From positions 1 to 64,000 of the forward strand of contig CASDPF010000008.1 of NCBI GenBank assembly GCA_949282215.1: a DNA stretch of 64,000 nt, read 5' to 3'. The stretch comes from an uncultured bacterium (GTDB taxonomy: Bacteria > Cyanobacteriota > Vampirovibrionia > Gastranaerophilales > Gastranaerophilaceae). The notes under the pieces were generated by a model that worked only from the letters and a program-made list of their open reading frames with translations, was not told where the DNA came from and made no database searches. Positions within the stretch are counted from its first letter, which is position 1; each line of letters begins with the position of its first letter. Shown here one piece after another: positions 26,660-59,462 of the stretch. A program made the translations under genes and the position numbers.

Positions 26660-26688
26660 TTGAATTTTTATAATAAATTTGTTAAAAT
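26660..26688 (+). promoter_or_regulatory. Promoter of G-tract leader 1 / pilin gene 4
   Basis: TTGAAT, a 17-nt spacer and TAAAAT. The same hexamers and spacer length occur in front of leader 3. It starts 3 nt after the preceding stop codon. Confidence 0.6.
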
Positions 26689-26720
26689 AAGACTATCAAA
26701 TAAAAAAGATAGTCTTATTT
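26689..26720. repeat. Inverted repeat just downstream of the leader 1 -10 box
   Basis: AAGACTATC and GATAGTCTT pair over 9 bp with a 10-nt loop, then ATTTT. It could be the terminator of the preceding gene or an operator covering the transcription start. Leader 3 has a repeat in the same place; leader 2 does not. Confidence 0.55.
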
Positions 26721-26736: not shown

Positions 26737-26787
26737 ATGCAAAAACAGCTAATAGATAGAATTTCGGGGGGGGGGGCTGCCGACTAA
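26737..26787 (+). CDS. Leader ORF 1 containing the G11 run
   Basis: A 16-codon ORF, MQKQLIDRISGGGAAD, with a strong AAAGGAGG ribosome-binding site 4 nt upstream. The eleven-G run encodes three Gly (GGG) codons and flanking bases. The bases encoding DRIS plus the G run are identical in all three leaders. With one extra G (or a -1 ribosomal shift) the reading frame would instead continue to TGA at 26868-26870, giving a 44-residue peptide very similar to the equivalent in leader 2. Function as a regulatory leader peptide is inferred. Confidence 0.6.
   Translation: MQKQLIDRISGGGAAD
26766..26776 (+). repeat. Homopolymer run of 11 G in leader 1
   Basis: An unbroken G11 in an AT-rich genome, preceded by GATAGAATTTC. 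Runs of this length are prone to slippage in replication, transcription and translation. The same length occurs at 51770 and 58548. Confidence 0.9.
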
Positions 26788-26922
26788 CAGTTAGGACAAG
26801 CATTTCCGACTTAGACCTCCGATTAGATGAAAAAGAGCTGAGAAGTAAGCCGTGCCAGAAGACACGGTGATTTTTGATGCAAAATTTCTAAAAAGCATGT
26901 AATAAAAACAAACGGAGGATTT
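26788..26922 (+). promoter_or_regulatory. Pilin 4 leader RNA: anti-Shine-Dalgarno switch region
   Basis: CCTCCG at 26816-26821 lies 39 nt after the G run and can pair either with the G run (CGGGGG) or with the pilin ribosome-binding site CGGAGG at 26913-26918. A hairpin with arms CCGTG and CACGG and an 8-nt loop lies between at 26850-26867. From the G run to the hairpin this leader is nearly identical to leader 2, with a 38-nt block without any change. I do not recognise a known riboswitch class. Confidence 0.6.
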
Positions 26923-27726
26923 ATGAAAAAGAGAAATGCTTTTACATTGGCAGAAGTGCTTATTACATTAGGAATAATAGGTGTTGTTGCAGCTATGACA
27001 TTACCTGCACTTATAAATAAAACAAAAAACAAAAAATTGCATACAGCATTTTTAAAAACCTATGCTGAACTAAATCAGGTAGCGATGTTATTCAAGGCCG
27101 ATTACGGAATAACAGTCCCGGAAGCAGTGACAAATAGTGGAGGTATAATGCGAGAAAATAGTAAGAAGATAATAGCTTATTATAAAGGTGCTAAGTCTGT
27201 TAATTCTGGAGGTCAGGGCACTGATGACGGCGAAGGTAATTATCTTGCATTTTATTCATTGAGTACATTAAATGGCAAATCTTATTCAGGGGGTGCAAAT
27301 ACAAGCGGAAGAAATTCTTCTTTTTTCTGTGATTCTTCAGCTTTTACACCTACTCAATCCGGAGCTATAATGATATTTAATGATGCACCACGTGTGGAAG
27401 GTCAAAATGGACCTGTTGTCTGTGTAGATATAAATGGTAAGAAAAAGCCTAACCGTTATGGAATAGATTATTTTATGTTTATTTTTACACTTGACGGACG
27501 GGTTATTCCTGTGGGACAGGAGCATAAAGACAATCCTCCTGTATGTAACAGTGCATCAGGTTCTTGTGTTAATTTTAATAATGTAGGGCCTGAGTATTGT
27601 TCTAATACATCAAATGATATTTCAAAAAATACATCTTGTGCTTATTATGCACTGACAAATACGCACCCGACAAAAGAGGGAAAAGATTACTGGACAGATT
27701 TTTTAGGCGAGGTATACAGCAGATAA
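26923..27726 (+). CDS. Type IV pilin-like protein 4 (G-tract leader type)
   Basis: Encodes 267 residues, the longest of the pilin-like set. The start ACGGAGGATTTATG is identical in the three G-tract genes. Prepilin signal MKKRNA|FTLAEVLITLGIIG. The globular part has VDINGKKKPNRYGIDYFMF, a Gly/Ser/Asn-rich region near residues 110-130 and eight Cys, most in the last 130 residues. No divergent regulator is present; control probably lies in the leader. The stop codon touches the ftsL stop codon (0 nt gap, convergent). Confidence 0.9.
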   Translation: MKKRNAFTLAEVLITLGIIGVVAAMTLPALINKTKNKKLHTAFLKTYAELNQVAMLFKADYGITVPEAVTNSGGIMRENSKKIIAYYKGAKSVNSGGQGTDDGEGNYLAFYSLSTLNGKSYSGGANTSGRNSSFFCDSSAFTPTQSGAIMIFNDAPRVEGQNGPVVCVDINGKKKPNRYGIDYFMFIFTLDGRVIPVGQEHKDNPPVCNSASGSCVNFNNVGPEYCSNTSNDISKNTSCAYYALTNTHPTKEGKDYWTDFLGEVYSR

Positions 27727-51684: not shown

Positions 51685-51713
51685 TTGAAAAATGTCTTTA
51701 AATAATTTATAAT
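51685..51713 (+). promoter_or_regulatory. Promoter of G-tract leader 2 / pilin gene 7
   Basis: TTGAAA, a 17-nt spacer and TATAAT, 27 nt before the leader ORF. Unlike leaders 1 and 3 there is no inverted repeat between this promoter and the leader ORF. Confidence 0.75.
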
Positions 51714-51740
51714 GAATATGACAGTAGTAAAGGAGGACGT

Positions 51741-51791
51741 ATGCAAAAATCGCTGATAGATAGAATTTCGGGGGGGGGGGCTACCAACTAA
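51741..51791 (+). CDS. Leader ORF 2 containing the G11 run
   Basis: A 16-codon ORF, MQKSLIDRISGGGATN, with AAAGGAGG 4 nt upstream. With one extra G or a -1 shift the frame stays open to TGA at 51872-51874, giving a 44-residue peptide whose C-terminal part (LTVRTSISDLDLRL, then KPCQVTR) closely matches the shifted product of leader 1. Of about a dozen base differences downstream of the run, three are silent in that frame and some others are conservative, so the evidence for selection on the peptide is only suggestive. Confidence 0.6.
   Translation: MQKSLIDRISGGGATN
51770..51780 (+). repeat. Homopolymer run of 11 G in leader 2
   Basis: Identical length and identical upstream 11 bases (GATAGAATTTC) to the runs in leaders 1 and 3. 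Confidence 0.9.
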
Positions 51792-51929
51792 CAGTTAGGA
51801 CAAGCATTTCCGACTTAGACCTCCGATTGAACAAGAAAGAGCTGAAAAGCAAGCCGTGCCAAGTGACACGGTGAATTTTGATGCGAAAATTTTGAAAATA
51901 GGTAATCAAAATATAAAGACGGAGGATTT
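51792..51929 (+). promoter_or_regulatory. Pilin 7 leader RNA: anti-Shine-Dalgarno switch region
   Basis: CCTCCG at 51820-51825 lies 39 nt after the G run and matches both the run and the pilin ribosome-binding site CGGAGG at 51920-51925. The hairpin arms CCGTG and CACGG lie at 51854-51871 with an 8-nt loop. The layout and spacings equal those of leader 1. Confidence 0.6.
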
Positions 51930-52631
51930 ATGAAAAAGAAAAATGCTTTTACCTTAGCAGAGGTACTGATAACGTTAGGAATAATCGGGATAGTAGCAGC
52001 AATGACATTACCGACATTGATTGAAAAACATAAAAAACAAGTGACAGTTAATAAATTAAAAAGGAGTTATACTACAATATCTCAAATGTTCAACATGGCA
52101 AGAAAAGATTATGGAGATCCTAATGAATGGAGTTTTGAGTTTGGAGAACTAAATTCTAACAGTTTTATAGAAATTTTACCCAGAATTGCAAATACTTATT
52201 TTTTGCCATATTTGGATGTTATGGATAATTGCGGAATTTCTTGTTCAAAAATACCAAATAATTATAAATATTTAAATAATAGTCTTATTAATCAATTTCA
52301 TAGAAATCTGTATTATACAATTTTCCTAAAAGATGGTTCTATTCTGTTTTTTTCTGTTAATAATAATGGTGTAGAATTATATGATTTGATAGTAGTAATT
52401 GATATCGATGGTATAAAAGGAGAAAATACTATGGGGAAAGATGTATTTTCTTACTATTTAAATACAAAAACTGTTGCAAAAAGTAATTTTTGGGGATTAA
52501 CGGGTACAAATGTTAAACGAGAATCTCTTTTAAATGATGGCAGGGGGTGTAATAAAAATGGCTTGGGTCAGTATTGCGGAGCTTTAATTCAGTATGATGG
52601 TTGGGAAATAAAGGATGATTATCCTTGGTAG
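51930..52631 (+). CDS. Type IV pilin-like protein 7 (G-tract leader type)
   Basis: Encodes 233 residues after ACGGAGGATTT. Prepilin signal MKKKNA|FTLAEVLITLGIIG. The signature is degenerate but present (VIDIDGIKGENTMGKDVFSY). C-terminus YDGWEIKDDYPW, shared with paralogues 3 and 9. It has four Cys. No divergent regulator. A terminator follows directly. Confidence 0.9.
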   Translation: MKKKNAFTLAEVLITLGIIGIVAAMTLPTLIEKHKKQVTVNKLKRSYTTISQMFNMARKDYGDPNEWSFEFGELNSNSFIEILPRIANTYFLPYLDVMDNCGISCSKIPNNYKYLNNSLINQFHRNLYYTIFLKDGSILFFSVNNNGVELYDLIVVIDIDGIKGENTMGKDVFSYYLNTKTVAKSNFWGLTGTNVKRESLLNDGRGCNKNGLGQYCGALIQYDGWEIKDDYPW

Positions 52632-52637
52632 TATAAA

Positions 52638-52668
52638 AAAGCCGCCGAATTATCGGCGGCTTTAAATT
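52638..52668. terminator. Bidirectional terminator between pilin 7 and ahcY
   Basis: AAAGCCGCCGA and TCGGCGGCTTT form an 11-bp stem with a 4-nt loop. Confidence 0.9.
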
Positions 52669-58435: not shown

Positions 58436-58464
58436 TTGAATATGATTAAAATATATGCTAAAAT
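58436..58464 (+). promoter_or_regulatory. Promoter of G-tract leader 3 / pilin gene 8
   Basis: TTGAAT, a 17-nt spacer and TAAAAT, the same hexamers as for leader 1, starting 9 nt after the preceding stop codon. Confidence 0.6.
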
Positions 58465-58505
58465 TAATAGAGAAATATTTATTATTTCTCTATTAATTTT
58501 TATGG
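58460..58505. repeat. Long inverted repeat at the leader 3 transcription start
   Basis: Arms of 18 nt at 58460-58477 and 58483-58500 are perfectly complementary around a 5-nt loop and end in TTTTT. The left arm overlaps the -10 box. As in leader 1, it could be the terminator of the preceding gene or an operator. Confidence 0.65.
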
Positions 58506-58518
58506 AAAGGTGGAATAT

Positions 58519-58578
58519 ATGCGTAATACAGTTGTAGATAGAATTTCGGGGGGGGGGGTAGCTGCTTACAAGCTGTAG
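58519..58578 (+). CDS. Leader ORF 3 containing the G11 run
   Basis: A 19-codon ORF, MRNTVVDRISGGGVAAYKL, with GAAAGGTGG upstream. With one extra G or a -1 shift at the run there is no stop before the pilin gene, so the leader ORF and the pilin gene would be read as one 314-residue protein. In leaders 1 and 2 the same shift ends at a TGA just after the hairpin. Confidence 0.6.
   Translation: MRNTVVDRISGGGVAAYKL
58548..58558 (+). repeat. Homopolymer run of 11 G in leader 3
   Basis: Same length and same preceding GATAGAATTTC as in leaders 1 and 2, although the sequence further downstream is much diverged. Confidence 0.9.
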
Positions 58579-58697
58579 AGCGTCTTTTTCCTTTATGCCT
58601 CCGCAAAATAAACGAAAAATTTACTGTGTCATTAGGCACGGAGTTTTGCAGTGCAAATTCTTTTGAAATGATAGAAAAATTTTATAACGGAGGATTT
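58579..58697 (+). promoter_or_regulatory. Pilin 8 leader RNA: anti-Shine-Dalgarno switch region
   Basis: CCTCCG at 58598-58603 is again 39 nt after the G run and can pair with the pilin ribosome-binding site CGGAGG at 58688-58693. The hairpin is CTGTG with CACGG at 58624-58641: one arm changed C to T, which keeps pairing as a G-U, and the loop is again 8 nt. Much of the remaining sequence differs from leaders 1 and 2, so the kept elements are probably functional. Confidence 0.62.
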
Positions 58698-59462
58698 ATG
58701 AAATCGAAAAAAGCTTTTACGTTAGCTGAGGTTCTAATTACGCTCGGCATAATCGGGATAGTAGCGGCTTTGACAATACCGCAGCTAATAAAAGATTATA
58801 AGGGGAGGGGTTTTGAGACGCAATTTAAAAAAGCTTATAACATAGCTCAACAGGTTATTATGTCTGCTAAAAACGATGTTGGGGTAGGTAATTTTACTTC
58901 TTTTTGTGTATCTTACACCGAAGATTCCGGATATTATAACAGTAATATATGTTATAGAGCTTTGTCAAAGGCTTTAAGCGGTGTCGAGACAAAGAGTACG
59001 TATATTTATGATCCAAAATATCAGATAAAAAGAGATGATGAGATAAGGACTTATAATAACAGGCAGGAAGCCACTATTTCTTCAATTGCAGGTTTTGGTA
59101 ATTTATGGCAATTATACAAAAATAAGGATGGAGCATTAATGCAATTTTCAATAATTGAGGGTAGAGTCTATATATCGATTGATACAAACGGATTGAATAA
59201 GCCTAATCAATTAGGTCATGATATTTTTGTTATGTATACAGATAGTCGAGATAGAGTGGTAGGAAACAAGCAATCAAGGCTATATACAGACGAAGAACTT
59301 GATAATATGGATTTTGAACACGAATATGACAAAGAACGTGCAGGAAATCCTTGCAGTGCAAAGTCTAATCAGAAAGCAAACGGAATAGGGTGTTCCTGGT
59401 ATGCAATAAATGATATAAATCCTGATACCGGAAAAAACGGTTATTGGAAGAATTTACCTTAA
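58698..59462 (+). CDS. Type IV pilin-like protein 8 (G-tract leader type)
   Basis: Encodes 254 residues from ATG 58698 after ACGGAGGATTT; the in-frame GTG at 58626 would bury the prepilin signal. Signal MKSKKA|FTLAEVLITLGIIG, with AALTIPQL where most paralogues have AAMTLPTL. Signature SIDTNGLNKPNQLGHDIFVM. It has five or so Cys and ends GCSWYAINDINPDTGKNGYW, resembling paralogue 4 near its end. The 3' end overlaps the convergent maf gene by 9 nt. Confidence 0.9.
   Translation: MKSKKAFTLAEVLITLGIIGIVAALTIPQLIKDYKGRGFETQFKKAYNIAQQVIMSAKNDVGVGNFTSFCVSYTEDSGYYNSNICYRALSKALSGVETKSTYIYDPKYQIKRDDEIRTYNNRQEATISSIAGFGNLWQLYKNKDGALMQFSIIEGRVYISIDTNGLNKPNQLGHDIFVMYTDSRDRVVGNKQSRLYTDEELDNMDFEHEYDKERAGNPCSAKSNQKANGIGCSWYAINDINPDTGKNGYWKNLP

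Follow-up and report, generated by a model that had tools for sequence, protein, structure and literature searches.

The window analysed here is a stretch of 64,000 nucleotides from an uncultured bacterium of the family Gastranaerophilaceae (contig CASDPF010000008.1, positions 1 to 64,000). A leader located at positions 51685 to 51930 precedes a prepilin gene, and this focal locus lies between rpsB and a downstream gene whose product is presumably adenosylhomocysteinase-like. The leader contains a short upstream open reading frame (ORF) with its own Shine-Dalgarno sequence that encloses a tract of 11 G; this ORF is absent from the earlier note on this DNA. The features of the focal locus are the following.

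51685..51713, forward strand: sigma-70-like promoter TTGAAA-17-TATAAT, with 11 of 12 consensus matches, unchanged at the same site in the sister genome G003 (locus alignment)
51730..51736, forward strand: Shine-Dalgarno sequence AAGGAGG of the upstream ORF, at which the conserved unit starts (sequence and 61 aligned leaders)
51741..51791, forward strand: upstream ORF MQKSLIDRISGGGATN*, with ATG at 51741 (translation at the assembled tract length)
51770..51780, forward strand: G11 tract within the upstream ORF (sequence)
51820..51825, forward strand: anti-RBS CCTCCG, complementary to the pilin ribosome-binding site (RBS) and also able to pair with the G tract
51854..51871, forward strand: hairpin CCGTG-8 nt-CACGG (arms at 51854 and 51867), between the anti-RBS and the RBS
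51920..51925, forward strand: pilin RBS CGGAGG (sequence)
51930..52631, forward strand: prepilin gene of 233 aa with ATG at 51930 (N_methyl PF07963, E 1.2e-6, 28.3 bits)
52638..52663, forward strand: terminator-like hairpin 3' of the focal pilin, kept at the same site in G003, where the pilin body is not kept

The 11 G, the CCTCCG motif 39 nt past the last G, the hairpin with an 8-nt loop and the RBS CGGAGG, all reported in the earlier note, were re-measured and found as described, and the spacing of the focal leader is that of leader 1 (G tract from 26766). A block of 38 nt said to be identical to leader 1 was not recovered at that length; the longest identical blocks are 42 nt and 27 nt, and the 27-nt block contains the G tract. 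The focal leader had been called a second copy. The repeat is real, but the total is not two: three leaders are present in the window and 61 complete leaders in the genome. Nine overlapping nine-G matches were counted in the window against 0.02 expected, and chance is therefore excluded. The other two leaders in the window and their genes are located as follows.

26737..26925, forward strand: leader copy 1, from upstream ORF start to pilin start, with G11 at 26766-26776 (sequence)
26923..27726, forward strand: prepilin gene behind leader 1 (pilin-motif match)
58519..58700, forward strand: leader copy 3, divergent, with G11 at 58548-58558 and the same 39-nt spacing to the anti-RBS
58698..59462, forward strand: prepilin gene behind leader 3 (pilin-motif match)

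With 12 G, the upstream ORF of leader 3 would enter the pilin in frame. Another five pilin genes of the window were examined, and none is preceded by a leader of this type. By eye, copies 1 and 3 have terminator-like hairpins between leader and promoter-like site (26686-26717 and 58462-58500), and none is seen between the promoter and the leader of the focal copy.

The 2.19 Mb genome to which the window belongs contains 92 tracts of at least 8 G, comprising 70 of 11 G, 10 of 10 G, five of 12 G, three of 8 G, and two each of 13 G and 9 G. Two classes of locus were distinguished. Class A is the focal type, with a separate upstream ORF, CCTCC and a pilin start of its own, whereas class B consists of sister genes in which the tract lies inside the prepilin leader peptide. 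A script identified 61 complete class A leaders in this genome, two further leaders having been dropped at contig ends; its pattern was not fitted by L082, L085 and L086, tracts at or near contig ends. Several contigs of the genome (C1, C19, C24, C25, C28, C32 and C33) start or stop in or near such tracts, and the copy number is for this reason probably a lower bound. The class A plan consists of a short ORF with a G tract, CCTCC about 39 nt beyond the tract, in most cases a hairpin, the pilin RBS and the prepilin gene. The upstream ORF nearly always has a strong Shine-Dalgarno sequence, and its usual start is missing in two of the 61 leaders (L017 and L052). The tract is 11 G in 57 of the 61, 10 G in three and 12 G in one; in the 12-G case one T fewer precedes the tract, so that the frame is unchanged. 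At least 150 prepilin-motif matches were found in the same genome.

The leader pattern was detected in 19 of 39 genomes searched, every one within the family of the window, and was absent from the 15 genomes that belong to other families of the order. A class A search of 21 relatives, made with a pattern that also matched unlike sequences, gave 36 counts in G003, one in G007 and a divergent one in G002, while two matches in G018 appear unrelated. A poly-G tract is also found at the start of a non-pilin ORF, SVDIVYLWVDGSDPEII... (L050, contig C11 of the same genome, around 20722), which is out of frame as assembled and whose product we take to be like a sugar-phosphate transferase; this locus suggests that the switch proposed below may not be limited to pilins. 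Another tract (L094, G005:C13) precedes a 514-aa ORF with a secretion-signal-like start and is one G out of frame. Covariance models gave no Rfam match near the gathering score for the leader, and a known RNA family was rejected on this ground. An assembly or two-colour poly-G artefact was rejected because flanks and frames are conserved across many genomes. Judging by titles and abstract openings, none of the papers listed on pili or homopolymers in Gastranaerophilales or on pilins in Melainabacteria describes such leaders, and phase variation in Gastranaerophilales and at least four of five wider topics gave no papers.

With the tract as assembled, the class A ORF stops a few codons past the G run, ahead of CCTCC. 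Some other tract length opens the ORF through CCTCC in all 91 leaders of this genome and its relatives. As assembled, 87 of the 91 are closed and four are open, all four being G003 leaders at 12 G (4 of 34 in that genome). Most class A leaders open with one more G. The divergent leaders L023, L075, L118 and L128 open with one G fewer, and so does L041 from its MQKADIELISGGG start, by reading, the script having taken another start. The homopolymer tract is one whose change in length shifts an ORF into or out of frame, a feature of phase-variable (contingency) loci. A conserved peptide in the read-through frame was rejected as a candidate in view of spacer indels and substitutions.

Class B was examined at 93 loci of 10 relatives. 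Outside G019, 62 of 77 tracts (9 to 14 G) exceed by one G the length that would put the pilin in frame, seven are off the other way and eight are in frame. Fewer loci are in frame than the one third expected (8/77, p 5e-6), and one out-of-frame state outnumbers the other (62 versus 7, p 4e-12); both p values are too strong because rows within one genome are related. In G019, 15 of 16 tracts have exactly 8 G and one more G is needed. Among 18 classified class B loci of the window's own genome, 14 need one G fewer, three need the other change and one is in frame. For 53 genes that are out of frame, the median distance from tract to stop is 2 codons in the actual frame and 9.7 in the third frame (p 2e-5), the stop of the actual frame coming earlier in 41 of them. 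From this regular frame relation and the early stops, the default out-of-frame state is old and kept, which fits a default-OFF slippage switch or programmed frameshifting alike. One and the same flank was found with 13, 12 and 11 G in G021, tract lengths being assembly consensus values with one genome per species. Open frames for MutS (874 aa) and MutL (589 aa) are present, and loss of mismatch repair as a cause of tract change was rejected accordingly. MutL was not found in G014 despite a 98% complete genome, in which poly-G leaders are present.

Folding calculations predict control of pilin translation by the anti-RBS, in which the G tract competes with the pilin RBS for CCTCC. The median cost of opening the pilin RBS was 3.2 kcal/mol for the free leader, 7.1 with a stopping ribosome, 1.1 with a read-through ribosome and 3.0 for shuffled sequences (57 of 61 leaders, four skipped); the focal leader gave 3.4, 8.1 and 1.1 kcal/mol for the free, stopping and read-through states, respectively. 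A simpler footprint gave 3.2, 6.5 and 1.1 kcal/mol for 52 of 54 leaders of the same genome, with stopping and read-through states at least 2 kcal apart in 42 of the 52 and the pattern failing in 10, and 3.1, 6.6 and 0.9 kcal/mol in G003, with such a separation in all 34 leaders. The values for leader 3 (1.3 versus 0.8) depend on the assumed footprint and count against the switch. Covariation analysis of 18 chosen divergent leaders yielded 15 further pair types against 11.0 in shuffled data (reached in 0 of 500; score in 3 of 500), a moderate degree of covariation. RNAalifold counted zero compensatory pairs in 20 leaders, and the overall fold of the focal leader was no better than that of shuffles (z -0.99). 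Swapping the RBS between loci lowered pairing for a set of 32 minority arms alone (14 of 300 swaps reach the observed value); for the full set of 97 leaders it did not (81 of 300).

The earlier note had proposed that the leader is more conserved than the protein it precedes. This holds among paralogs, for which leader identity is 0.795 (nt) and protein identity 0.237 (aa) in 53 class A genes of the genome. Four-fold sites of the N-terminal codons in these genes are 0.417 identical (chance 0.323), and the 100 nt upstream of the leader are 0.34 identical, which is near chance. Between species, the order is reversed at the same site. Flank-matched sites in relatives comprise 22 pairs, nearly all from G003. 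At 13 of the 22, body aa identity is 0.82-0.96, while the leaders have a median identity of 0.816 versus 0.801 for all cross pairs; same-site leaders have a mean rank of 0.33 instead of 0.5, and exchange is thus not total. N-terminal four-fold identity is 107/172 versus 616/810 in the body (p 3e-4). In 12 pairs, identity is 0.88 in the upstream non-coding stretch from -300 to -100 and 0.74 between hairpin and RBS. Leader variants are specific to species, one occurring in 17 of 54 leaders of this genome versus 0 of 34 in G003, and another in one and 14, respectively. Some leaders, among them leader 1 and the L041 leader, appear to have been passed on together with their gene, each of these two being near the top rank for its partner.

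At eight of the 22 matched sites, including the focal locus, the pilin body is different (<0.6 identity); two of these eight are without a matching downstream flank. In G003 the promoter at the focal site is unchanged, identity is 0.85 for the leader and 0.36 for the pilin body, and the last pilin codons and the terminator are nearly identical. Since promoter, gene end and terminator are alike and the body is unlike, the pilin at the focal locus was most likely replaced in one species or the other. Replacement of a segment with both flanks kept, the pattern of gene conversion, was found at the focal site and at flank-matched sites. In other relatives, the focal site contains a divergent leader with 9 G (G002) or a class B pilin (G010). 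No pilin was found there in G004, G009 and G012, which have longer stretches at this position, or in G007, which has 269 nt only and no room for a gene.

Three explanations had been offered for the similarity of the leaders, namely recent spreading, gene conversion between leaders and selection on the RNA. Gene conversion is supported for most loci by the reversed order between species, body above leader, and by same-site leaders (about 0.82) that are close to unrelated pairs (0.80); selection on the leader RNA is supported also. Plain recent spreading by duplication is insufficient, given that leader similarity is independent of pilin similarity (Mantel test, observed value matched or exceeded by 108 of 500 permutations). 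Equal rates of divergence of leader and gene had been named as the outcome that would speak against special conservation or exchange; between species, leader and gene do not diverge together.

The preferred reading, with a probability of about 0.58, is that the leader is a slippage-prone translational switch for the prepilin gene and that leaders are exchanged between dispersed pilin loci by recombination. The anatomy, the frames and the exchange were established by comparison of sequences. With 11 G, the short ORF ends ahead of the CCTCC anti-RBS, and another tract length carries it through. In the folding prediction, an early-stopping ribosome would cover the G tract and CCTCC would pair with the pilin RBS (OFF); a read-through ribosome would disrupt CCTCC and free the RBS (ON). 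Tract length would change by replication slippage in living populations, the default state is probably OFF, and copying of G11 leaders may help to reset tracts to OFF. Leaders are swapped between loci, often with the pilin start and sometimes with most of the pilin, while promoter, flanks and terminator stay. A wider proposal, which must be regarded as tentative, is a self-resetting variable-pilin system of dozens of default-OFF poly-G loci that are turned ON by slippage and returned to G11 by leader conversion. The same homology would swap whole bodies, consisting of the leader and N terminus at one end and the C-terminal codons at the other, with the G tract perhaps starting the exchange.

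Programmed frameshifting or transcriptional slippage, by which a constant share of products would shift frame on a fixed tract and give steady low pilin expression, is an unlikely but serious alternative. Out-of-frame tracts are far more regular than random phase would give (62 of 77 loci need exactly one G fewer and 15 of 16 in G019, at 8 G, one more), the actual frame stops a median of 2 codons after the tract versus 9.7 for the third frame, and MutS and MutL are present. A further point against the switch is that ON takes one more G in most class A leaders and one fewer in most class B genes. The paralogs behind this regularity are not independent, however, and four G003 leaders stand at 12 G. 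The switch is preferred over frameshifting because identical flanks carry 13, 12 or 11 G in G021, in-frame states exist (8/77) and the direction of the shift is not constant between gene types and genomes. The class B layout, with the tract in the prepilin leader peptide, is also that of a slippage switch.

A purely regulatory RNA element, in which an RBS switch made of the G tract and CCTCC would respond to a signal or an sRNA without heritable switching, is improbable. Its merits are that G11 is held more tightly in class A (57/61) than in class B (10/18, p 5e-4), that the tract and the RBS compete for CCTCC, and that an sRNA is known to target a G repeat in the leader of an mRNA (PMC8295292). 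Against it, another frame of the upstream ORF is open across CCTCC in 91 of 91 leaders, the class B tract lies within the coding frame, and no Rfam match was obtained. Shared ancestry alone, that is, recent duplication of the family with a leader slower to change and no exchange, would account for leaders that are alike within one genome and in one sister species. It is very improbable, since same-site G003 leaders are little closer than random pairs even where flanks and bodies match, leader and body similarity are uncorrelated, and the between-species data already point to leader trees in conflict with pilin and flank trees. Equally little weight is given to a leader that serves mainly as a recombination handle for the shuffling of pilin bodies, with an incidental effect on translation. 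The focal site, where promoter and gene end are kept and leader, N terminus and body differ, agrees with such a handle, but the conserved ORF, its stop, the anti-RBS spacing and the covariation are not needed for homology.

Several elements of the proposed switch have counterparts in known systems. In the phase variation of Neisseria pilC and opa, the repeat tract lies in signal-peptide codons and the leader is cleaved, so that the mature protein is unaffected; the focal type differs in its separate pilin start and predicted RNA switch. Antigenic variation of gonococcal pilE proceeds by gene conversion near a G4, one expression locus being fed by silent partial copies. Here too, pilin segments are exchanged between dispersed copies with a G-rich element upstream, which is a G11 tract in the leader instead of a G4; no single expression locus and no set of silent partial copies were noticed here. 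In leader-peptide translational attenuators and translational coupling, upstream ORF position decides whether the downstream RBS is free, whereas the deciding variable here would be a heritable tract length. The gut commensal Bifidobacterium breve has an out-of-frame pilin with a G10-G11 tract and measured length mixtures (PMC9187656). The tract of this sortase pilus likewise joins a signal-bearing upstream ORF to the pilin ORF, the annotated state being out of frame and slippage giving the pilin. Where that species has two loci of sortase pili (PMC9187656), dozens of type IV-like prepilin loci are present here, and in the focal type an anti-RBS comes after a separate upstream ORF that contains the tract. 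The Helicobacter pylori tlpB leader (PMC8295292) resembles the present one in its homopolymeric G repeat, the length of which sets expression; control there is by the trans sRNA RepG and here would be by a cis CCTCC and an upstream ORF.

If the preferred reading is true, an uncultured gut relative of Cyanobacteria would possess a very large set of switchable surface proteins. The design of the switch would be tract-length control of read-through across an anti-RBS, combined with leader exchange, and could be tested in sequencing reads and with reporters. The question of how gut commensals vary their surface would then become directly testable in this lineage.
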